From Lytechinus variegatus (lineage: Eukaryota > Echinodermata > Echinoidea > Temnopleuroida > Toxopneustidae), in the NCBI RefSeq assembly GCF_018143015.1, contig NC_054751.1, positions 17,159,292-17,223,291 on the forward strand: a stretch of DNA of 64,000 nt. Direction: 5' to 3'. Under the pieces are notes generated by a model. The model saw only the letters and a list, made by a program, of their open reading frames with translations, made no database searches and had not been told where the DNA came from. Both the position numbers and the translations under genes were made by a program. Numbering within the stretch: the stretch's first letter is position 1; every line of letters starts with the position of its first letter. Of this stretch, positions 15,163 through 64,000 are shown in pieces.

Positions 15163-22034
<6,872 letters not shown>

Positions 22035-24200: not shown

Positions 24201-27200
24201 TCAGGATTTTATCATAACCATGGAGTCCCAGTCTCGCTGGTATCCCCCTGAGCTTTTCTCATCCTCTTTGTCGCTTTGATTCAATCTCCTCAAGAAAGCA
24301 ATGACATCCTTCTTCAGTTCTTCGGGTGCCGATTGGCGGAAATTCCTCACGTGGGTTATGAAATCGAGCATCCGGCCTCCCTGGACAGAGGAGGCGTCAA
24401 AACACTGCGAGATATCGGAGGGCCATGATTGGTGGTGGAAAGTATAGGGCGTGTCGGATTGGGCGTAAATCTGTCGTAGATGGGCGGAGCAGAGGTTGGT
24501 TGCGGGGCTTCCTTCACATAACTTCGGATGTCGATCCCACACGCGATAGATGCCAGCTTCTTCTGCAAGTGTACGATAGTACAAACATGCCGAAATACGA
24601 TAATGGCATATCTGATTCGATAGTGATGATGGTGATGATGATGCCAGTGAGGATGATGATGACGATGTGCCAATAATGATGATAAAGGTGATGATGATAA
24701 TGATGACGGTGACAACAATGATGAAGGTGATGATGATGATGATAATGATGACGGTGACGATGAAAGTGATGATGATGATGATGATGATGATGACGGTAGT
24801 GATGATGATAATGATGGAGGTGATGTTGGTGACAGATGGTTGCGCTTGCAGCGGAACGATAGTGATATATACTACAAAAACATCTTAAACAGAAACAAGA
24901 GAACAGAAACCACTACAAATCTATGCCAACCGTCAATTCCATGCAACTGACCATTAATGGTACAACAATTACTATCAACCTGCTGCGTATTTAACCAAAA
25001 TTAAAGGGTTCAAATATTGCATGCGTATTGGGTAAAATTTGACCTTTTTAAAATGAAATAAATATTCATAAAGTGAATTTGTCAATCGTTTTCCTTTCAT
25101 TTTATATCTTAATCTCATCTTTTTTTTTCTTTCACTGCCCCGAGCTCCTCATCTACGCGTCAGTGACTTCGCCTATACTTCTACTCCACATCTGAAAATA
25201 TGAATAAAATTCTACTCTATCTACGACTGACAATGACCGGTGTTAAGGATTAAACGATATTAAAATCCTAACAGAAGTAATGAGTTAAACCACACTTTTA
25301 ATAGCCATTGAAATATTGAATAAGATTAACCTGGTTTTACTACACTCATTTCTTAGTGATAAAGTGCATTATTCAATATAGTTACGGGACAATCAATAAA
25401 TTCAATATTTTGAATGTAATTGATTATAATTTCTGACCTGAGAGAAGTATAACAAGAAGAGCTCCTTGCTTGACCAGTCTGTCCCTCAGATAGGTATGTG
25501 CTTGCTGTAGGTCATTGACATAGTACAGTGAATGAATGGCGTGGATGAGATGAAACCGCTCTTTATCCGCACCCGTCGATTTCGCTTTCTCTTCCTCCAA
25601 CTTCTGAAACTCGTCGAAGGTTTTGTTGTGCCATTCGAACTCGACACCGTCGAACTTCGGTCGGCTGTCATTGATGAGGGATTTGAATTCCTCCAGTGGT
25701 TCGTTGGCGGGTTCGACGACCGTGTAATGGATGCGGGGGTACCTTGCCACTAGCTGTTCTAGCATGCAGCTATCGACTTTTCCTGAAGAGATCAACGTAT
25801 TATTGGCAATTTCAGTACAAAGCCAAAAAAACCTTTACATGGGGGGGGGGGGCAAGACGCATAAATAATTAAAACAAAACTCAAAACCGAGGGAGCAAAG
25901 CGATAGTGCTTGTCTTGTGGGCAATTTAGCATTTTAAAAAGTGAAATTGAATGAATTCGTGCACAATTTTGTGGATTTATTTTTCAATAAAAAATGTAAG
26001 TTTTAAATAAAGTGCAGCCTTTTTTGTACTTCTGAAGTTTGTTTTTTAGGTTGAGTTTTTGTTACCTTTCGCGCAATTTCTAAGAACTGAGAGGGCGGTT
26101 AGACTTAAAATAGCAAACAATTAATAGCAATATAAATAGATTATCCATCTTAAGGATACAATTATTAATTACATTGCGAAAGTTCATTAACCTTGGTTAT
26201 GTGACCTAAAACTTGCACAGGATGTTCAGTGATACTTGATTATGTCCAAGTTTTATGAACTAGACCAACAAACTTTCAAAGTTATGGTGGTAATTCAACA
26301 AATATCCCCAACTTGGTCAAAGTTCATTGACCCTAAATGACCTTTGATCTTGGTCATGTGACTTGAAACTGAGAAAGGATATTTAGTAATAAACCCTTAT
26401 GGCCAAGTTTCATGAACCAGATCCATACACTTTCTAAGTTATGAAGACATTTGAAAACCTTAACATCAGGTTAAAGTTTCGATATTGACTCCCCCAACAT
26501 TGTCTAAGTTCATTGACCCTAAATGACCTTTGACTTTGGTCATGTGACCTAAACATGCTAAACAAGGAAAGCAATTCTTTTCCAGATTATGAAAATGCAT
26601 CTCTTAACAAGTATTTAGCTTGTGAAACCCTACAAGTATTGAATATATATCCCTTTTTTCAGCATTTTAAACATCGTTTTGACACACTTATAACGTTACA
26701 TAGGCCTATATACGTAACGTACCTGCCCACTCTGTCCCCTTTTACGGGTGGTCGCTACTGGTATCCACTAATCAATGGAAGTGGGCCCCCCGGGCGGCCT
26801 CTCGAGCTCTAGGAGGAGTCAAATATGGCTTTGGAAAGTCGTCCTCAATCGGATAAATCGCTGTTACCATAGTAGCAACCAGAATTTTGCACACGAAACG
26901 CATATTGAATGTTTCCGTCGCAGATGCGAAACGAAAAAAAAATCTCATGTCACACAATTTGCATTGCAGGACTGAGTTTTACGACCATGATGACGGGCCC
27001 AAAAAGTCCCTTCCAAAGTCAACTACCGTTGTAAATAAGCGTCCGCGTCCTCAAACGAAAGGTCGGGATTATCTACATGATGTGGGTCACAACTACAAGA
27101 AAGTACTACGTTTTATATCGTTTAACCCCGTTACTAACTACTATACTGATATAAGACAAATGGGGGGCATTACAGTTACATGAACTCGTTCTACCTTATC

Positions 27201-30200: not shown

Positions 30201-33200
30201 CATGATTCCTGTATCTGGGAATGATGTCTATATACACTTTAAGCCTTTACCATGACTTTATGAATGGCTTTCATGTTGCTCGTATGGGCAAATGCTCATT
30301 GGTACTCTTATAAACCATGCCCAGAGATCTCGTGATTCAAGCAAGTACTCATATTCACCACCAAGACAAGTGGTGTGCTACAAGGACCAAATATTCGAAG
30401 CTAACGAGATTTTATTTGTACTGGGTGTGACATCTTGTGCTGATCACTTGACAATCAAGGAGCATGCTAGCGTGGACTATACTAGCAAGAAAAGCAAAGA
30501 CTCTACCAAGTCAAGGAGAGAGCAAGACTTGGATAGAAATATGAAGCATTCAAACAGTGAGACCCATGTAGAACTGACTCATTGCACAATATGAGTGGGG
30601 TATCTGCTCCGGTAGTAACTGCTCATGAAAAAAAGTCGATATCAACCAAGCAAGGTCATCAAGGTTACACATAATCTACGTGGAATTTTAGAGGAAAATA
30701 TCACAAGTTTACTTGATTATTTATAACATGACGGATGCTTATTTGCATAACATGTACATTCCACTTCAGATATAGATCCACAGAGGGGAGACCTTTGAAG
30801 GACCTTTCAAAGACCAAAAATTGGCAAGGTCTTAATTTATACAGCAATCTCCAAGATCACTGAAATTTGTCATTTCTGTTGTGGAATGGCTCAGAAAGAC
30901 CCCTCAAAGAACTCTGAAAGACACCTGTCCTATAGAGATCTTTCAATGGTCTTTCAGAGATGTTTATGCATCAAGTGATCTTTCAAAATTCTTTCCATAG
31001 ACTTTGCCTGGTCTTTCATTTATCTTTCGATGATATTTCAATGATCTCTCATGAGTCTTACAGTAATCTCCGTAAAAATCTTGAGAGACTGCCGAAAGAT
31101 CATAGAAAGACTAATAAGAACTTTGAAAGTTCATTGAAAGACCACTGAAAAATCATCAAAAAATAATTTTACTGTAAGACCACTGAAAGACTGTTTTGAA
31201 CCGTTTCAAAAAGTTTTGGGACTCACGAGGAACATAAAGACAATTGAAAGATCTATCAGGAATCGTGAAAGACATCAGAGATCTTTGAAAGTTCGTTGAA
31301 AGACCCTTGAAAGATCAAGCAAGTTTTATCGTCTTACAGCAGTCTTTCAGAGGTCTTGTTCTCTGTTGAATTGGGGATTTGGGGTTTAACTGTTTGTGTG
31401 AGAAAATTAAAAATTTCTGGGTTTTTTTCATACAAGGATGCTCATAATTATATATGCAAATGATGTAGATTTATTTACGTTTTTTATTTGAAGAATTATC
31501 AAATTTGTAAAGATTACCATGAGCTTCCGTTCAATTTATATTGTTTTCCGCACTTGATTTCCAATTTTTTGATTATTTTCCTCATTTGCAAATTATTATG
31601 GCTAATTTGCATAAAATGCAAATTTTGTGATTTTCCTATGATTTCTATTTAATGACTTTTCATATGGTATTACTTTCCTGTAAGGCATTTCCATATTCCA
31701 ATTTCAGTAGATAATCTACTTGCAATTTATGAGGAATGTATCACCAGTGTGTTTTCTTGAATATTTATCACATGTTAGATACTTATTTGCATAATATGCA
31801 AATGACACTACAGACACTAAGCTTAATATTAATGTATTCAACGTCCTTAGTGATAGAAGCATAGTAATTTCAACATTATTGAAATTTTCAAGCAGTCAAT
31901 GAGAGAAAAATCACAATATCTTGACATTTTTTCCATATATGGATGCTTATTTGCATATTATGCAAATGAGGTAGATTTGTCTGCATTTTTGATTAAAAAC
32001 ATTGATTAAAATTATTTATCATGAATTTCCTCTCAAATAAAATTGTTTTGGACACTTAATTTCTAATTTTTGGACTATTTTCCTTATTTTTCTAACTTTT
32101 TATGGCTAATTTGCATAATATGCAAATTTCATATATTTCCACACCTTGGATTTTTTGGGACTTTCAGTATGTTGTTCAGGGGACCTTCCTGGAAAGCATT
32201 GCAGTGGAATATCAAGTGTTGCAATTAGTGGTTGGTCAAACCCTATATTGACTGGACTATATGTGTACGAGGAGAATTTTATTTTAAAAAATGTTTAAAA
32301 AAAACTCCTCGAAACAGACGGCTGCCAGCTGTCTATGATTGAATGCACTTATAAATACACAGATAATAACACCATGAGTGGGTCCAAGATACATATATTT
32401 TTTCACGAGTCGAGCTGTCGAAGCGAGTTCGATGAGACTGGTAGTTTTAAATAACAACCCTATTCTGGTTAAACATTATTTACGGAGGTCAGGCCTATTA
32501 TACATTCCGAGTTTTGTGACAATGCACTCCAATTAAGCATATCGTCTTCTTTTAAAACTTTTTTCCATATTGCTAGCGAGCTTTTGTTGGTCAGAAAATA
32601 CTAATTTTCTCTACATACACTTGAACAATATTGATTTACTATGACTTACAGGAAAATATTGCTCTTTAGTCAATTTATAATCTATAATCGTGTAACCTAT
32701 TTCTGGGTACCCGGGGGGGGGGGTACCCAGCTCTACCCTGCCGCATGCCGACGAGAAATCAAAGTTCATCCATAGAGCTATTTTGGTTCATCCACTCCAT
32801 TATTCAGTAGGCCTATTCAGTCTATAAAAAATGTCGAGTGGATCGAGTACAGTACAGTACGCTGTACTGTAGTGAATATTCATTCTGTATAACAAGTCAA
32901 ATAGAGCAAATTAAGGGAATTAAAAGAACAAATATATCACTTAAAACTCAAGTATGATTGAATCACAATGGGCTCAGCATTATATACATTATTTCATGTG
33001 AGCCTGTAATGTAGAAATTATAAGAGTTTAATTCAACGAACCGTCACCGCTCCCCACAGCAAGCACCCGTAGAGTTCCATCACTCGGAAACTTGGATATG
33101 AAATGGGTGACAACCTGCTCCTCAAAAACAATCCTGGCCCAGTCCTTGTAAATGTCCACTTTGAGCCCAGAGAACTCGGCATAGGCCTGGTATGCCTTTA

Positions 33201-33276
33201 GGTAGTCATCAAGGTCATCAACCAGCTTTGGAAGATTTTCGAAGCACGAATCCGGGACACAATTCTCCGCCATCAT
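24201..33276 (-). CDS. Histamine N-methyltransferase-like SAM-dependent methyltransferase
   Basis: Three exons, 33276-33042, 25782-25438 and 24562-24201, join in phase to give 313 residues. The family is about 290-300. The donor of exon 1 (G|GTTCGT) is weak, but the join restores a typical methyltransferase motif I: VLAVGSGDG plus KVDS. VVEPA at residues 100-104 supplies the acidic residue that usually binds the SAM ribose. HLIHAIHSLYYVND and ALLVILLSG fit later Rossmann strands. The C-terminus has DISQCF and the LDFITHVRNF region, which resemble HNMT. Known HNMT methylates the imidazole nitrogen of histamine in the cytosol; the substrate here is inferred. There is no signal peptide. Intron 1 (25783-33041) is full of repeats, including fold-back element FB1. 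The start is MetMet at 33276/33273. Confidence 0.85.
24620..24825 (+). repeat. GATGAT-type trinucleotide repeat
   Basis: Imperfect GAT repeats with GGTGAC interruptions lie in intron 2 of the methyltransferase gene. The methionine-rich plus-strand ORF over this region is a repeat artefact. Confidence 0.92.
26165..26560. repeat. Dispersed repeat, second block of 'TGACCTTGGTCATGTGACCT' units
   Basis: About two units related to those at 23560-24100 sit in intron 1 of the methyltransferase gene. They share GACCTTTGA.CTTGGTCATGTGACCT, GGCCAAGTTTCATGAACC and CACTTTCTAAGTTATGAAG. They flank exons 2-3 on the other side from the first block. Confidence 0.65.
27371..27980. mobile_element. TTAA-flanked MITE, about 610 bp, family copy 1
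   Basis: It starts TTAAAGGTTAAGTCCACCTC and ends GGGTGGACTTGTCCTTTAA. Inverted arms share TTGATTTGAATCAATAGAG-like and AAATTTCATCAAAAT stretches. The centre carries GATGATGTCACTCACTCAC and, in inverse, GTGAGTGATGTCATCA. A close copy lies at 41225-41826 and a partial one at 61870-62075. It is non-coding and TTAA target use is typical. Confidence 0.8.
29126..29374 (-). pseudogene. Reverse-transcriptase relic of a non-LTR retrotransposon
   Basis: The minus-strand reading contains EEIVIENNLHEATRPDGIS followed by ATLLNETTHQISPAISLLF. This fits the RT segment that in CR1/jockey-type LINEs reads roughly K(A/S)xGPDGIP..LLKE....I.P.L..LF. The frame ends soon after and no other RT motifs could be placed with confidence. 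It is a truncated, dead fragment inside FB1. Confidence 0.55.
30780..31340. repeat. TCTTTCA / TGAAAGA mirror-like inverted repeat region
   Basis: The first half is dense in TCTTTCA-type words (for example GATCTTTCAATGGTCTTTCA). The second half is dense in the inverse (TTGAAAGACC, GAAAGATC). The two halves can pair into a long imperfect stem. It sits between the LINE relic and the right arm of FB1. Confidence 0.6.
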
Positions 33277-34397
33277 TTTGGTTTGACAACAGAATGCCCA
33301 CAGAACAATACAAACTGGTATACTAGTAGTTGTCTTTTAAAACGGTACACGACAAAGTTGTGCGGAAGTACTGCGAAATTCAGGGAGCTGCAGATCTAGG
33401 TAAAGAGGTCACACCGACACCAGTGAAAATTGATCCTGGAAAGTTATAATGGTGAATGAAGGGGTGGGGGTGAGATGACCCAAAGGTGCATGGACCTGGG
33501 AAGCGGGGGTGCTCGGGGGTGCTGGATGAAGCAACCCCAGGATTTTCCCTTGGGTTGCTGCGTGTATTATTTTCCATAGGCATTACCCCTGGAATTCTGG
33601 TTTGTGTGTCACATAGCTAGAGAAATGTGTGGAAAATGATCATCTTGTGTTGAAACCCTTTTTTTTTGCTTATCACATTTCTTGGCACCAAAAGCTGGGT
33701 GCCCGATTTTAAGACTTATTTTGTCTTCTTTGGCTCCCCCCACAATAATTGTATTATTTTCTAATAGCTCGGTTCACTTTCCTTTCCTTTTCAAATGTTT
33801 GTCTCCTATTTTGCACACATTGTGTCATGTTTTTATATTATTGTGGAAATACATAATTTGATTTGATTCAGGGGCGGATCCAGCTTTCGCCAATAGGGGG
33901 GGGGGGGGCGAAAAATATGTTCATCAACATTTTTCTCGATTGGCCGCTATAATCTGATTTTGTTTTATTATTATATCATTATATATCACACTTGTGTGAA
34001 AGCGTTTGTAGTTCACGCCCGAAGTGTGTACAAAACACGTGCGCGGGTTAGAATGGACTTTGGACCTTGTCCTCTACACAAGTCATGTTCTCCAATTGAC
34101 TTAGTCCACCTCCTGGACTGTTGTTATTTTGTACGACACGACTACCAAACACCCAGCACACTACAACCCCATAACAGTACACGCATACACACACCCTGAA
34201 TAGTCATATGATTTTTTTTTCGGGGAAAGTGAATCAGTGGGTATAGTAAGGTGAATCACTGGGGGTAAGTGAATCAGTGGAGGGTGCGGGCCCGGGCGTG
34301 TGTGTGTTGCCCAATCAGTAAAAATCGTCCAGGACGTGGACTACCATTGACTTTGCGTGGGTCCCCGGTATTCGATCTTCGTTTTCCAAACCCGTTA
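33277..34397. other. Upstream flank of the methyltransferase gene; no gene seen
   Basis: This is 1.1 kb between the start codon of the methyltransferase-like gene and element FB2. It should contain that gene's promoter, but no TATA box or CpG-rich core stands out. A repeat remnant with GGGGCGGATCCAGC and a poly-G run lies near 33871-33912. Confidence 0.5.
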
Positions 34398-35567
34398 TAG
34401 TCCAGGATAGGCCCCATAGAAACTTGACCAAACCTTGTTTTTTATATATACAATATTTTTTGATGGTTTCTTGTCAATTCGAGGGTGCTGATTACGAATC
34501 TGGATGATGCCACTCGTGTAACCTTGAGCATTTTCTGCAAATTGGCAAAATCCAATATGGCCGCCAAAATATGCAAATTACCCATGAAAATCCTAAAATT
34601 GTCCGCACATTGGCTATGGAATGCATGAAAGCGTGTGGCAGGAGTAAAATACACTCTGAAAGAATAATTGTTGACAAAATATTTATTTTCCTGATATTCG
34701 AAATGGCCGCCATAGTCCATTGTATACTCTATTATGTACAATATATATAAATAGGGAAAACCAATTTTCACAAAAATGAGCACTAAACCGCAAAAAATTG
34801 CGATGTATGAACGAAGTAATATATGCAAATCATCATTACTAACGAGATATATCATTTATTATGTCATAAATGGGAACATTTCTGTATTTGGTATCTAAAA
34901 TGGCAGCCACTGGCCCAAACAGTATTGCGTACAATGGCAATGGGGGCCAAAAAATTCACAAGAGTGATCACTAAAATGCATATTATTAAGATTACACGAG
35001 TGGAATACTGACTAAAAACATAACTGTTAACGAAATATATCATTAATATGCCATGTTTTGTGATGAATGTTGTATTTTGATATTCAAAATGGCTGCCAAA
35101 GGCCCTAAAAGTATTATGCACACAATGAGAAAGAGTGGCAAAGAAATCACAAGAGTGATCACTAAAATGCATATAAATGTGATAAATTAATGAGATACTG
35201 TTTAAAAACATATTTTCTAACGAAATATATCATTCAGGTTTAAAGTGTGTGTTAAATACTGTAGTTTTACTTTCAAAATGGCCGCCAGAGACATTAACAG
35301 TATTATGCACAATGCAAAGTGGGAAACCAATATTCACAGGAGTGAGCACCATAAATGCAGGTATTAGTGATCTATGAGTAAAATATTGTCTGAAAGCATA
35401 ATTTCTATTAAGCAGTTAAGAGATATCATTTATTCTGCCAGTTAGGTGATAAATACTGTTATTGGAAAGTCAAAATGGCCGCTACAGGCCCTTACGATAT
35501 TATGCACAATGTGAATGGGAACAAATTATTTCAGCAGAATTTGGCTTTGCTTGGCCAGATGGTGCCA

Positions 35568-37206: not shown

Positions 37207-38566
37207 ATAATGTTCACAAAAAGGGCATATGGCAGCCATTTTGAATGTTGAAATACAGTATTTATCACCTAAATTACATAAGAGATGATATATTTTGTTA
37301 TAAATCGTGCAGACGATATTTCACTCCATACATCACCATTTGGCCAAGCAAAGCCAAATTCTGTTGAAATAATTTGTTCCCATTCACATTGTGCATAATA
37401 TCATAAGGGCCTGTATCGGCCATTTTGACTTTCCAATAACAGTATTCATCACCTAACTGGCAGAATAAATGATATCTCTTAATATAAATTATGCTTTCGG
37501 ACAATATTCTACTCATAGATCACTAATACTTGCATTTATGGTGCTCATATTGGTTTCCCACTTTGCATTGTGCATAATACTGTTAATGTCTATGGCGGCC
37601 ATTTTGAAAGTAAAACTACAGTATTTAACACAAACTTTAAACCTGAATGATATATTTCGTTAGAAACGTTAGAAAATATGTTTTTAAACAGTATCTCATT
37701 AATTTATCACATATATATGCATTTTAGTGATCACTCTTGTGATTTCTTTGCCACTCTTTCTCATTGTGTGCATAATACTTTTAGGGCCTTTGGCAGCCAT
37801 TTTGAATATCAAAATACAACATTCATCACAAAACATGGCATATTAATGATATATTTCGTTAACAGTTATGTTTTTAGTCAGTATTCCACTCGTGTAATCT
37901 TAATAATATGCATTTTAGTGATCACTCTTGTGAATTTTTTGGCCCCCATTGCCATTGTACGCAATACTGTTTGGGCCAGTGGCGACCATTTTAGATATCA
38001 AAATACAGAAATCTTCCCATTTATGATATAATGAATGATATATCTCGTTAGTAATAATGATTTGCATATAAATTATCACTTTGTTCATACATCGCGATTT
38101 TTTGCGGTTTAGTGCTCACTTTTGCGAAAGCTAGTTTTCCCTCTTTATATTGTACATAATACAGTATACAATGGACTTTGGCGGCCATTTTGAATATGAG
38201 GAAAATAAATATTTTGTCAAAAGTTAATTTTTCAGAGAGTATCTCACTCCTGCCACACAATTTCATGCATTTCGTAGCAAATGTGCGGACAATTTTAGGA
38301 TTTTTATGGGTAATTTGCATATTTTGGCGGCCATATTGGATTTTGCCAATTTGCGGAAAATGCTCAAGGTTACACGAGTGGCATCATTCAGATTCGTAAT
38401 CAGCACCCTCGAATTGACAAGAAACCATTAAAAAACATTGTATATATAAAAAAACAAGGTTACGCCTCTTCTATCCTGGACTATTACGAGGCTGTAAATT
38501 GCACATCATGGGTATAATACCTCCCCAATACGGGAATACCTCTTTCTCACTTTTCTTTCTGTTTTT

Positions 38567-44392: not shown

Positions 44393-45530
44393 TTTTGTGA
44401 TATCACGAATTTGAATTACTGATATCACTAATTCGATTTAGTGATATCACTAATTCGATTTAGTGATATCACCAAATCGATTTAGTGATATCACCAAATC
44501 GAATTAGTGATATCACTAATTCCCATATGTTTTTCACACAAATCCCTTTTTTGATATCAAGAAATAGAATTCGTGATATCACTAAATCGAATTAGTGATA
44601 TCACTCAATCGAATTAGTGATATCACAAATTCGAATTTGTGATATCACTAAATGAATTTGTGATATCAAAAATTCGAATTAGTGATATCAGGAATTGAAT
44701 TTGTGATATCACGAATTCTATTTCGTGATATCAAAAAAGGGGTTTGTGTAGTAAATGAATAGAAATTAGTGATATCACTAATTCGAATTTGTGATATCAC
44801 AAAATGAATTTGTGATATCACTAAATCGAATTAGTGATATCACTAAATCGAATTAGTGATATCACTAAATCGAATTAGTGATATCACTAATTCGATTTAG
44901 TGATATCACTAAATCGATTTAGTGATATCACCAAATCGAATTAGTGATATCACTAATTCCCATATGTTTTTCACACAAATCCCTTTTTTGATATCAAGAA
45001 ATAGAATTCGTGATATCACTAAATCGAATTAGTGATATCACTCAATCGAATTAGTGATATCACAAATTCGAATTTGTGATATCACTAAATGAATTTGTGA
45101 TATCAAAAATTCGAATTAGTGATATCAGGAATTGAATTTGTGATATCACGAATTCTATTTCGTGATATCAAAAAAGGGGTTTGTGTAGTAAATGAATAGA
45201 AATTAGTGATATCACTAATTCGAATTTGTGATATCACAAAATGAATTTGTGATATCACTAAATCGAATTAGTGATATCACTAAATCGAATTAGTGATATC
45301 ACTAAATCGAATTAGTGATATCACTAAATCGAATTAGTGATATCACTAAATCGAATATGTGATATCACTAATTCCAATTTTTGATATCACAAATTCATTT
45401 AGTGATATCACTAATACGATTTTGTGATATCATTAATTCGACTTAGTGATATCACTAATTCGAATTAGTGATATCACTAATTTGATTTAGTGATATCACT
45501 AATTCGAATTAGTGATATCACAAAATGACA
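44393..45530. repeat. Palindromic GATATC satellite with 437-bp higher-order repeat
   Basis: About 45-50 units of roughly 22 bp, centred on TGATATCA, are joined by AATTCGAATT-like or AAATCGAATT-like linkers, so almost every unit is itself a palindrome. A larger block recurs at 437-bp distance (CATATGTTTTTCACAC at 44524 and 44961; GGGGTTTGTGTAGTAAATG at 44739 and 45176). Each block has an inverse pair of its own (CACAAATCCCTTTTTTGATATC versus GATATCAAAAAAGGGGTTTGTG). It is non-coding. Confidence 0.95.
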
Positions 45531-45570: not shown

Positions 45571-45866
45571 ATTTCGAGCTTTACCTCAGTGCTAGAATTC
45601 ACGTGGTATTTTGAGCTTTACTTTAGTGCTAGAATTCACGTGGTATTTTGAGCTTTACTTTAGTGCTAGAATTCACGTGGTATTTTGAGCTTTACTTTAG
45701 TGCTAGAATTCACGTAGTATTTTGAGCTTTACTTTAGTGCTAGAATTCACGTGGTATTTTGAGCTTTACTTTAGTGCTAGAATTCACGTGGTATTTTGAG
45801 CTTTACTTTAGTGCTAGAATTCACGTGGTATTTTGAGCTTTACTTTAGTGCTCAAATTCAGCTCTG
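45571..45866 (+). repeat. 37-bp minisatellite carrying an E-box in each unit
   Basis: Seven full units and one decayed unit of exactly 37 bp begin at 45571, 45608, 45645, 45682, 45719, 45756, 45793 and 45830. Each contains GAGCTTTACTTTAGTGCTAG and AATTCACGTGGT (E-box CACGTG). Unit 4 has CACGTA instead, and the first and last units differ more, as expected at array edges. Confidence 0.95.
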
Positions 45867-53372: not shown

Positions 53373-56300
53373 TTACCTCTCGGCCCGTCTCCCAGACGTA
53401 AGTTCTGATCTGTGAACAAGCTCGGACGCGACTTCTGCTCTATGCTGACTTTCATGTAGTTTAACATCGGCGTATAAAACGTCATTGGTGTATTTGAAAA
53501 TTTCAAATAGCACACATAGATCTCTTACGTTCCTGAAGTTTTCATTGAGCTCTGTATGGAATGTAAGCGTGCTCTGGACAGGTGTTCGGTTTTCTCCTCT
53601 GAAACCCTCCCGAACGATCTGTGATTACCAAAGAGAATAGATGAAAAGAATGTAGGATTATACAGTGTACCATAGCTTGAAGGTTCATGTTCAATGTATC
53701 TTTACCGAATTAACTGTCACAAAACATATATTTTCGAACATTTAGCATCCTACTTTGTGTTGTCCTCGTTACCAATATGACAAGTACAAACTGAGTATTA
53801 ATGTTCATTACTTATCCGATTTTATGCTTAATTGTTAACTTTTTACTCATTCTTTTCAATTGGCATACGATTATTCTGTCTGTTTTGTTTACTCCTCATG
53901 CCCCTTTTGTCAAAGCATGGATGTACTCATACCAGTTAACAATTCTGTGGTAAAAGTTTGAGATGGTAAAAGTTGTATCCAACTTTCAAGTACTTACAAT
54001 GGCATTGAGTCTGTTTAACGTCACTTCGATGTGGTCTCGAATGTGATAGAATGTTGAGCTATCGCCATCAATGTGAAGGAAATCATCTGCACCAATGTAC
54101 AAGGCTTCGTCCGAGATGAGGTAATCCATGGCCTGGTAGTATATCCCAAGATTTGCTCTGTGTGTTTCAAGGAGGTCTTCTTCCGTAAGCCCTTGCCTTG
54201 TTCTTGTCTCTTCAAGATCCTGGATAGTTGGGAGTCCACCAAGAACGAATGTACGGGGGTTGATGTCTGCATCGGTACCAAATCTCTGTCTCCTCTGTAG
54301 GATTGAGAAAGAAAGAATGAAGAAGAGTGTTCAGTAAGAAGGGACGGAGCTTCTTGATGGAATTTTTACTTAAAAAGAAAGGAATAAGCTTTTATGTTTG
54401 CAAGTTGCCTGACTTTTCTTTTTGAGATAGTTTATCGATGGGATTTTCATGTGCTCATCTATTAAGATAATATTGTTACTGATCTAAACGTGAGAGATAC
54501 CTGACCGTGTCTTGTTTTTTTCAGCCACGTGGGAGCCCACAAAGCACCATGCGGTACCTTCCGAACATTTCGAACTTTCTATTGCATTGTTCAGAGGTAT
54601 AAATCGCCAATTATAGTACGTTAGCAACGTTATAAACTTGTTATTCAAAAGAATCATCCTTTCCTGGGTCAATCCGAACATTGTGTTTATTGAATACCTA
54701 TAGTTATCCCTGATCCATGACTAGATAACTGTGGTATGCTATTGTCACTATTGTCAACATTACCTTTCGCTTAATTGCTTCTTTATCAACGCGGCTCTGC
54801 CGAGGGTTTTACGTCCCTTTGTCAGAAAATTCTTACACGTGAAATCGATGATTTGTCTAGCCTGATCCTTATTTCCCATTCTCTACCACAGCAATAATTT
54901 TCTATAACTTCAAATGGCAAGGATATCTATTTCATTGTAACAATCTAGTTTTACAACGTTGGTGGCTCGAACTATTGCGCAATAAAGGTTACTTCTTGCA
55001 AATACCCCAGACCTCGTCTCGTCGGGACACTTGACAACGTACATGTCATAATATTGTACAAATTACAGGACAAAATATACGTCACTAAGAGACCTTTCTT
55101 TTAAAAATGATTTCTAACATCAGTCTACTTTTACAAACATATCGGAGGTAAATTGAATGTTTTCACTGTGCCCACCGTGTTTTACGTGACCAGGCAACGA
55201 ATTACAAAGTCCGATAAACTAACACCATTTTGAATAAACTTCCGCCTGGCCAATAGAACATAGTTATGGAGAAAAAAATGCGTGGTACTATTTTCTTTAT
55301 ATGGTGCACTTCTTATTTACAAAAGACTCGTAGTAGCTCTCCGGGGCTCGGTTTGATGAAAGAACAAATACCAAAGTGGTTTCGAAACAGTTAATTTAGG
55401 AGTGGAATGTGCCGTGTCATTAAATCATTATGCGATCATGCCAGTAGATCAAGCGATTTGTGCATTTGCAACCTTTGACAATAAACTTTGTAGTGTCAAA
55501 TTGAACCAGGGGAAATGGTCCTCTTTCGAGTATTATTCATCCCTTTAAAATAAAAAAAAACGTGTGTTCATTCATTAAATGGGCGAGATGACAGTCGCAT
55601 AAGACTCAATATCGGAAGTAGTCGTTGTCGGGTTGGTCGCGGACCAATGGGCCATGAAGAACAGAGTCGAATACGAGCCAACCCTCTCTCCCTAATGAGT
55701 ATTTGACAATGTCCGATTAGATCCATGCATGCAATAATACGGCTATCATCCATCTAATAATTATGGGCACTGGATGGAAGGTAGAGGATCACTACAGAGC
55801 AGTTCGTTTATAAATATGACTACACCCACGAGTTGTTTGCTGAAAATTTGACGTCATTGCTCATTGACTTTTTTCTCTCCCTAAAGCTTTTGAGTACCAC
55901 TGCCGACCTACACATGGATTTTTGGAGCGGATATACCGTTGATGAGATTGGCTTTTTAACACGTACATTACCCCGGTCATTATTGCTACACCTAATGGAT
56001 TTACTGTTAGAAAAGATGCACAAATTGATAATAGCAAACATACGACGAGGAATTTCAGGCACTTCTTTCTAATTCTATAAGTCAGACATATGAAATTTTA
56101 CTCGTTTGATGTTTTCCATTATCCTCAGTTGTTCTTTGTTTATATTGAGCTCACCTGTTACCACCAATGGGCTCCGTAAATGCATATTATTTAACGAAGC
56201 CAACTCCCAATTATCCCCTTGACATTTTAACTTAAACGGACAAAGAGAGCGCAACTGTGCAAGGGCGCTAGATGAATTGACGAATTCATTAGTACATCAG

Positions 56301-57779
56301 TTAAGCGGCACATCCGAAAATTTAAATACCACTCTACCTGCTTATTTAGGGAGTGATTAAGGATTAAGTGCTACTCTATGTGCACATGATGTAATTTTGG
56401 CGCACATGTACTGCGATATCAAGAGACGATGATGTAATTATTGTAACCATAATTGCAGAGTAACTTATGTCATCATACATGTTATGTAACTGTTACGTAA
56501 CAAATGAAATTATCCACAGTTCTCTACAAGAATCCCGGGTAAAGGTAAAGTAAACAGTAAATTCAGACCTATTGACATGATAGAATGTAATTCTTGTTCA
56601 TTAAATACTTACAAAGCCATTATAAACATTTCTTGAGTGCTTAGCCAGCTCTGATGTGGCGTCTGATAAGTACTCGTGGAGTTGCAATAGTGAATTTGCT
56701 GGTGTTTCAATGTACTCCAAAGGTGCTCTCGTTGGGGCTCCTAACGTTGTGTATGAGCGGCCCAGCAGTGTTAGAGCAAGGTAAACTGTAAGAAATAATA
56801 ATAATATATTAATATCGGAGAATGTAAATAGACCACTCATAAAATTAACCACATTTATAATACTATTTTTTATAGAAAGGAATGTGCACAGTTAATAGGT
56901 TAGGGAGAACAAAAAGAGCACGTGGACTGGTAACAACAGAGATCGATGCCGTTGGAATGTTTATTCACACGCTTCTCTTGGCCCTTATCCAATGTTTTGT
57001 AAAAGCTGCCCATGTGTGTGCGAGCAACGCCATCACACGTAATTGAAATAGATATTGTCCATGTAACTTGATTGGTTTACTTATGTTCTCCGAGGTCAGG
57101 ATTAATTGGAAGCGAGTCGGGGAAAGGGGAACAAATTCAGAAAGGTTAATATGGGCATTTTATTAAGAGGCGTCCCGGGCCGCGAGTAGATGGGTAACGC
57201 GGCCCCCTCCAAACGGCCGAGACTCCTTGTGGTTCATAATCTGCATACAAAGCAGACTCCACTCAAGAACATCTCCAGTGGTGTGAACTTTGTGAAATTT
57301 TCACTCCCAGAGTGCCAGGTTTATTTTTAGCACTTAAACACAGATTTTCATCGATGAAAGATCTTTTTAAGCTTAATCCTCAAAAAGTGCTGAACAAACG
57401 TGAAATATCATAAATTTCATTTTTGGTAAAATACATACAAAAATATTCACAATGATGATGCAATGAGATGGGGATGTTTGTGCTTAATAATGATGAATAT
57501 CAAGAAAGTAATAGCAAGACTCCTCTAATAGCATGCGAAGACGTGTTGGAACCTGTTGCTGCCATGGTATAGTGATGGAGAACGCATCACCATTTCCTGG
57601 TGGAGATAGAGTCGATGACCTCTATGTAATACAATGCATCAAAAGTATCTGATTTTTCAATAGAGCTGAGCTGAAAACGCAAAGGAATCATTAATTAGCA
57701 TTTTATGTAAAAATTGTCAAAAAGTGAACATACCTCTTGATATCGCCAGAACAAATGGATTCGAAGATAAATTCGCCAT
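53373..57779 (-). CDS. Candidate secreted class I four-helix cytokine (IL-6/CNTF/CLCF1-like)
   Basis: Exons 57779-57734, 56785-56613, 54294-53998 and 53618-53373 join in frame to give 253 residues. All borders are GT-AG and the intron phases are 1, 0, 0. The N-terminus (FVLAISR then VYLALTLLG) is hydrophobic and likely a signal sequence. By eye I place helix A at about 46-72, a long AB loop with DINPR and GGLPTIQDLEE (83-102), helix B 110-140, helix C 152-176, a CD loop to 197 and helix D 198-228 (NVRDLCVLFEIFKYTNDVL). This order, the NP..LP..DLE loop, the helix-B pattern NLGIYYQAMDYL and the single Cys207 recall CNTF/CLCF1. Intron phases and a 3' AU-rich element agree. The gene model is firm; the family is inferred from pattern, not a search. 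Another helical secreted protein remains possible. Confidence 0.8.
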
Positions 57780-62859: not shown

Positions 62860-63640
62860 TGATTGCTTGTTGATTGATTGATTGATTTGTTGATTGATTG
62901 ATTGATTGTTGAATTGATTGCGTATCGATTGTTGATTTGATAGCTTATTGATTGGTTGTTGGTTTGACCGATTGATTGTTGATTTGATATCTTATTGATT
63001 GGCCGAATGATTGATTGATTGTTTATTTGATGGTAAATTAATTGGCCGACTGATTGCTGATTAGATACTGTAATGATTGGGCGATTGATTTGATAGCGTA
63101 TTGATTGGCTGATTGTTTGATTGTTGATTTTATAGTGTATTGATTGGCCAATTGATTGTTGATATGATAGTGGATTGATTGGCCGATTGATTGTTGATTT
63201 GATAGTGGATTGATTGTTGATTTGATAGTGGATTGATTGGCCGATTGATTGCTTGTTGATTGGCCGATTGATTGTTGATTTGATAGTGAATTGATTGGCC
63301 GATTGATTGATTTTTTATTTGATGGTGGAATGTTTAAATGACAGATTGATTGCTTGTTGATTTGATAGTGGATTAATTGGCCGATTGATTGCTTGTTGAT
63401 TTGATAGCGTATTGATTGGCCGATTGATGTTGATTTGACAGTGGATTGATTGGCTGATTGATTGCTTGTTGATCTGATAGTAGATTGATTGGCCGATTGA
63501 TTGATTGTTGATAGCGTATTGACTGTTGATTTCGGTTCCCATGTTTTAATGTATTGATCAAAATTGATTGATTGATTGGTTGATTGAATGAATGATTGTT
63601 TGATTAACAATTCTTGTTTGATGTATTGATTGATTGAACG
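62860..63640. repeat. TTGATTGATTGGCC minisatellite
   Basis: About 20 or more imperfect units of roughly 28-40 bp combine GATTGATTGGCCGATTGATT and GTTGATTTGATAGTG. The pattern fades out on both sides, into ATTGATCAATTGATT-like sequence from 62480 and on to the window end. The 190-codon minus-strand ORF rich in Asn, Gln and Ser is an artefact of the array. Confidence 0.92.
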
Positions 63641-64000
63641 ATTGATGCTTTTATAGCTTATGTTTCACTGTTCTGAGTGATCAATTGATTGAATAATTGT
63701 TGACTTGATATGTATATATTTTAGTTTATTTTGGCCAATAGTATATGATTAATCAAATGATTGAATAATTTCTGATCATTTGATATTTATGTTTATGTTT
63801 TACTAATTTAATTGATCAATAAAAATGATTATTGATTCTGTAGCAGTATAGCTTGTGTTCTACTGGCTTGATTGATCAATCGATTGACGATTGTTATATC
63901 TTGTTATACATTTTTATTGGTGATTTATCAATTCATTGAATTATTATAGCTTCTTATACAGTTAATGTAAGATATTATTGGATGATCGGGTGAACGAATT

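Follow-up and report, generated by a model that had tools for sequence, protein, structure and literature searches.

A candidate helical cytokine gene of IL-6/CNTF/CLCF1-like layout in a sea urchin

Do sea urchins make a ligand of the IL-6 type? In its accessible part, PMC13203501 reports an IL6R-like receptor in the sea urchin Strongylocentrotus purpuratus, places the origin of IL6R-like receptor, JAK and STAT in older animals, and gives IL-6-family ligands only in vertebrates; the available text of PMC8226699 likewise gives none in invertebrates. Two class I receptors are described in Ciona in the accessible part of PMC1963337. For the sea star Asterias forbesi, an 'IL-6-like' molecule was claimed by Beck and Habicht (1996), whose work is cited in the available portions of PMC9465101 and PMC8226699; there, its similarity to IL-6 is put under the BLASTp threshold. 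The present case resembles it in that an IL-6-like molecule is claimed for an echinoderm. Among the titles and abstract openings consulted, there was no report of an IL-6-type cytokine at the sequence level in an echinoderm.

The window analysed here is the whole stretch of 64,000 nucleotides, and an earlier note on it had proposed a candidate class I helical cytokine gene at 53373-57779, with a layout that fits the IL-6/CNTF/CLCF1 group. We consider the likeliest reading, probable though unproven, to be that this gene encodes a secreted, fast-evolving four-helix class I cytokine-like ligand with an IL-6/CNTF/CLCF1-like layout. That it is a true homologue of the group in an echinoderm, and that it is the ligand still missing for the gp130/IL6R-like receptor of echinoderms, is a more tentative proposal, with chances somewhat short of even. 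If it is a true homologue, then the ligand-receptor pair and its intron layout would date to the deuterostome ancestor and not to the vertebrates. A sea urchin candidate ligand in hand as sequence would make the origin of gp130-type signalling experimentally testable in sea urchins. As stated in its accessible part, the survey of PMC13203501 accepted BLAST matches with E no higher than 1e-5 and an identity of 30% or more, and the candidate gene would not pass these thresholds.

The gene, its product and its relatives

The gene has four coding exons, and its coding sequence of 762 nt gives a product of 253 residues:

57779-57734, minus strand: exon 1 (46 nt), with the start codon, the leader as far as residue 15 and the first base of codon 16, and a GT donor.
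56785-56613, minus strand: exon 2 (173 nt), with the hydrophobic stretch of the leader, the greater part of predicted helix A, an AG acceptor and a GT donor.
54294-53998, minus strand: exon 3 (297 nt), with the end of helix A, the AB loop, helix B, the BC loop and most of helix C, an AG acceptor and a GT donor.
53618-53373, minus strand: exon 4 (246 nt with the stop codon), with the CD loop carrying the sequon N182, helix D carrying C207, the tail, and an AG acceptor.

The three introns (948, 2318 and 379 nt, of phases 1, 0 and 0) all run from GT to AG, and the spliced product is letter for letter the database protein P0001, "uncharacterized protein LOC135156145" of the sea urchin Lytechinus pictus. 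The exon joins proposed in the earlier note are therefore the same as those of an independent annotation, and its model of four in-phase exons encoding 253 residues is borne out. A tblastn search of the window found no paralogue, the best match outside the gene's own exons having E 0.44.

Beside the identical protein, two relatives were found; they are 240 and 246 residues long and keep the entire frame. One (P0002) is 85% identical to the candidate and lies on a transcript-sized contig of 1,421 nt, probably a spliced transcript, because this length cannot hold introns of the sizes given above. The other (P0003), from the diadematoid sea urchin Diadema setosum, is 52% identical. A profile search again returned only these three proteins among 4813 word-sharing candidates. 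Both searches reach only proteins that have short exact words in common with the query, and within that reach the named relatives are all sea urchins (echinoids). A protein search with a vertebrate query gave 381 proteins, and among the 120 matches listed the named ones inspected are mammals.

The N-terminus has the appearance of a plausible secretion leader, with a hydrophobic peak (VYLALTLLG) and small residues at -3 and -1 before A32. The leader, residues 1-31 (57779-57734 and 56785-56739), is identical at 19 of 31 positions between Lytechinus and Diadema, as against 104 of 222 in the rest of the protein; such conservation is unusual for a signal peptide. The N-glycosylation sequon N182, in the CD loop, is kept in all three proteins. 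So is C207 in helix D, the only cysteine of the candidate, in agreement with the single cysteine counted in the earlier note.

AlphaFold was run twice, each time from a different starting sequence (Lytechinus and Diadema), and gave models of low confidence (pLDDT 40.2 and 41.4; pTM 0.27 and 0.39). The Lytechinus model has a leader helix followed by helices at 48-78, 111-132, 153-175 and 191-252, and the Diadema model has helices at 50-80, 113-136, 150-178, 190-199, 203-225 and 227-245. The main elements are placed as follows:

56613-56690, minus strand: helix A, residues 48-73, continuing to about residue 78 in exon 3; predicted in both models.
54184-54279, minus strand: AB loop, residues 79-110, holding DINPR....GLP within an FG..DINPR....GLP stretch that resembles CLCF1 and CT-1.
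54100-54183, minus strand: helix B region, residues 111-138 (NLGIYYQAMDYL); 21 of 28 residues identical between Lytechinus and Diadema.
53998-54057, minus strand: helix C, residues 153-172, continuing to about residue 175 in exon 4; predicted in both models.
53460-53537, minus strand: helix D, residues 200-225 (FRNVRDLCVLFEIFKYTNDVLYADVK); predicted in both models.

In their secondary structure, both models have four long helices with a long crossover loop between A and B, and the helix order described in the earlier note reappears in these predictions, at pLDDT 40 and 41. Values as low as these mean that the models do not prove a four-helix bundle. The fold search that the earlier note had suggested as a check allowed no fold call: Foldseek with the two weak models gave best E values of 1.0 and 0.35, which are within noise, with unrelated proteins in the top rows, and no cytokine was among the best 50 rows of either Foldseek or VIA-align for the first of the models. 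Helices A, C and D are weakly amphipathic, their moments being equalled by 248, 91 and 269 of 3000 shuffles, respectively. Helix B is not amphipathic by this measure (2435 of 3000 shuffles reach its moment).

The bundle topology, the secretion, the receptor and the signalling are all inferred. The leader would be cleaved after about residue 31 and the protein, carrying its glycan, exported from the cell; the ligand may then bring together class I receptor chains of the gp130/IL6R-like type, and their pairing would lead to JAK-STAT signalling.

Sequence comparison with known cytokines

Pfam searches, another check named in the earlier note, matched no family at E 10 with any of the three proteins, and NCBIfam gave none at E 10. 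The lack of any match to the IL-6, LIF, CNTF and PRF models bars filing the proteins under these families; it is not a Pfam match that defines the cytokine fold. Searches of the PDB gave noise, and their best matches were rejected (prenyltransferases at E 0.33 with the single sequence; RNA polymerase at E 1.5 with the profile).

The proposed relation to CNTF, CLCF1, CT-1 and LIF likewise failed to appear when profiles were compared with hhalign. Against the mammalian family profiles of these four cytokines the urchin profile gave P 0.098-0.58, with 0.10-0.64 for the reversed profile, and the result against single human sequences was also null. In the controls, CNTF found CLCF1 at P 2.8e-5 and CT-1 at 4e-6, and LIF, as a single sequence, gave 0.0017 against CT-1, 0.056 against CNTF and 0.42 against CLCF1. 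Since LIF in the form of one sequence also misses CLCF1, a null result from a urchin profile of three rows is weak evidence.

A rival explanation is a secreted protein, all-helical and specific to echinoids, that has no cytokine ancestry (for example from the coelomic fluid, the egg coat or the matrix), its four helices and similar introns being coincidental. The absence of a family match and of distant relatives in Pfam and in the word-limited searches, the null hhalign comparison and the unusually conserved leader all speak for this explanation, which we regard as unlikely but as the best of the alternatives.

Returning to the cytokine-like ligand, BLASTP of P0001 against human CLCF1 gives E 3.3, with the AB-loop stretch as its first segment. 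By eye and in MAFFT alignments, the parts that match CLCF1 best are the AB loop (FG..DINPR....GLP against PFNEPDFNPPRLGAETLP in CLCF1) and helix D. An FxxK motif marks the LIFR-binding subgroup (LIF, OSM, CT-1, CNTF and CLCF1), and its letters are present in human CLCF1, CNTF and CT-1 and in LIF. It is absent from the start of helix D in the urchins, where Lytechinus has F200-R-N-V203 and Diadema F-R-N-I, and the status of a CNTF/CLCF1 orthologue is therefore not supported. We file the protein as a candidate that would work like a class I cytokine, and not as an orthologue of CNTF or CLCF1. What stands of the group assignment proposed in the earlier note is the gene, the predicted helices and the cytokine-like layout; the Pfam and hhalign results and the missing FxxK count against it.

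Alignments were also scored against shuffles in which the hydrophobic/polar/Pro-Gly pattern of each segment was fixed and residues were permuted within classes, the segments being the helix limits of the weak Lytechinus model. A semi-global version gave nothing clear (z 1.6 for CNTF, 0.4 for CT-1, -0.1 for CLCF1 and -1.1 for LIF); we think that it is uninformative, since free ends favour trivial overlaps. The global version was adopted after this result had been seen. With family profiles, the global score was reached by 17 of 1000 shuffles for CLCF1, 27 for CNTF, 19 for CT-1 and 54 for LIF. When the four families were taken jointly at four gap settings, 0-2 of 2000 shuffles reached the mean z, with 109-226 of 2000 for reversed targets; because the reversed CT-1 family alone scores z 2.8-4.0, this count is not used as a significance, and a ranking against decoys is used in its place.

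In that ranking, the global z was 2.4 for CLCF1, 2.2 for CNTF, 2.0 for IL-11, 1.7 for LIF and 1.6 for CT-1, and OSM (0.8), IL-6 (0.5) and G-CSF (0.0) did not stand out. The null set comprised 47 comparisons, namely 16 unrelated helical decoys forward and reversed and 15 reversed cytokines. None of the 16 forward decoys reached 2.0, and five of all 47 null comparisons did, with a maximum of 3.6 for reversed CT-1. The eight IL-6-family targets rank above the null comparisons with p 0.005, a value from an imperfect null and targets that are not independent. This ranking, drawn from sequence, is suggestive and not proof, and it goes against a protein of no cytokine ancestry. EPO, at 2.4, also stands out, level with CLCF1. 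The tie with EPO, the conserved leader and the missing profile signal all tell against the cytokine reading.

Intron layout and likeness to known systems

The strongest independent evidence is the intron layout, of which the earlier note had made no use; positions and phases tend to favour the class I / IL-6 group. A leader intron that splits a codon, followed by phase-0 introns of which one lies at the end of helix A, is a feature of genes of the long-chain class I / IL-6 group. The urchin gene has all of this: a phase-1 intron in the leader and two phase-0 introns where helices A and C end, that of helix A at NVYNGF|RRQRFG.

Mammalian CLCF1 variants place an intron between LAGTY and LNYLG: one variant retains it, and six others, which begin within it, read ..Q|LNYLG. 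This Q is consistent with a CAG acceptor in frame, so that the intron is most likely of phase 0. One CNTF fragment similarly reads ..Q|VKHQG, at a site that follows LTALTESY in human CNTF. Judged from protein letters and not from DNA, CLCF1 and CNTF therefore most likely both have a phase-0 intron directly after helix A. Directly before DSWGMLAC, most CLCF1 variants have G and two have R, and this variation, again in protein letters, suggests that the leader intron splits a codon.

In global alignments blind to introns, the helix-A introns of CLCF1 and CT-1 fall 3 codons away from that of the urchin gene at all four gap settings; the distance is 0 or 3 codons for LIF and 8 for CNTF, with CT-1 and LIF introns at the positions where we take them to be. 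Given that two introns placed at random in about 200 codons have a chance of about 7% of lying within 3 codons of one site, the agreement is modest evidence. It argues against coincidence in a non-cytokine echinoid protein, at least for CLCF1, CT-1 and LIF, CNTF being 8 codons off; the order of phases (1 in the leader, then 0) would, taken alone, be weak evidence and would still suit such a protein.

With vertebrate CLCF1, CNTF and cardiotrophin-1, the candidate shares four predicted helices in similar order and an intron where helix A ends, which in the vertebrate genes is most likely of phase 0; with CLCF1 it also shares a leader intron, which splits a codon in the urchin gene and seems to do so in CLCF1. 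The AB-loop stretches are alike (DFNPPRLGAETLP against DINPRTFVLGGLP), as are those of helix D (WLLKELQTW and KVLQELSQW against CVLFEIFKY in the urchin). It differs from these cytokines in having neither a significant profile score nor FxxK, and in an extra phase-0 intron after helix C; we know of no intron there in the CLCF1, CNTF or CT-1 genes. The cysteine of human CNTF is near the start, unlike that of the urchin protein in helix D, and CNTF has no leader, whereas the urchin candidate has a putative one.

The gene of IL-6, a five-exon long-chain class I cytokine, has an intron after helix C, as does the urchin gene. It is unlike the urchin case in having one intron more and giving no alignment signal (z 0.5 above), and the urchin protein, with one cysteine, has no internal disulfide. 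Exon 2 carries leader and helix A in both, as the accessible part of PMC7284502 describes for IL-6. Drosophila Unpaired is a further parallel, as a non-vertebrate ligand reported with a gp130-like receptor, JAK and STAT in the available text of PMC8226699.

It is worth adding that exon layout was earlier used, in work on interferon-lambda, to support helical cytokines that fail on sequence (PMC2654155, accessible part). According to the same portion of PMC2654155, IL-10-family genes have five exons and no split codons, as do IL3 and IL21 of class I, and the first intron of IFNL2/3 (class II) is of phase 1; because of these exceptions, intron phase is no clean mark of class. The class II layout of five exons and no split codon is not that of the urchin gene, which has four coding exons and a first intron of phase 1.

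This bears on whether the protein is a helical cytokine-like ligand of some other branch, be it class I of the erythropoietin/growth-hormone kind, class II (IL-10/interferon) or a ligand like Upd that arose independently. We judge this improbable: urchin intron 1 splits a codon, as IL-10-family genes do not, IFNL2/3 being an exception, and growth hormone (z 0.6), prolactin (-0.6), IFNA2 (0.2) and IL-10 (0.3) gave no signal in the global alignments. That exons of different genes, or of no gene, were mis-joined is barely credible, with nothing to favour it beyond the by-eye construction of the model, and with an identical database protein and two whole-frame relatives, one on a transcript-sized contig, against it.

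Other features of the window

A scan of the window against Rfam at gathering scores gave no match. Features seen elsewhere in the window are:

19962-20348, plus strand: a subtilase exon (Pfam Peptidase_S8, E 7.4e-10), PCSK9/proteinase-K-like by eye.
25427-25834 and 33031-33336, both minus strand: methyltransferase-like reading frames, the first with a weak Methyltransf_12 match and the second with none; by eye we take them to resemble histamine N-methyltransferase.
34867-35229, minus strand, and 37651-38028, plus strand: near-identical translated stretches on opposite strands.
44397-45528: a 22-base unit repeated in tandem about 52 times, within a larger period of 437 bases.
45571-45860: 7.8 copies of a 37-base unit with 97% match, following the 22-base array.
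62860-63646: a degenerate TGAT-rich tandem array.

Oppositely oriented arrays of a 15-base unit lie between the two near-identical stretches, and the pair is perhaps the inverted repeat of a mobile element. The TGAT-rich array opens long repetitive reading frames on the minus strand.
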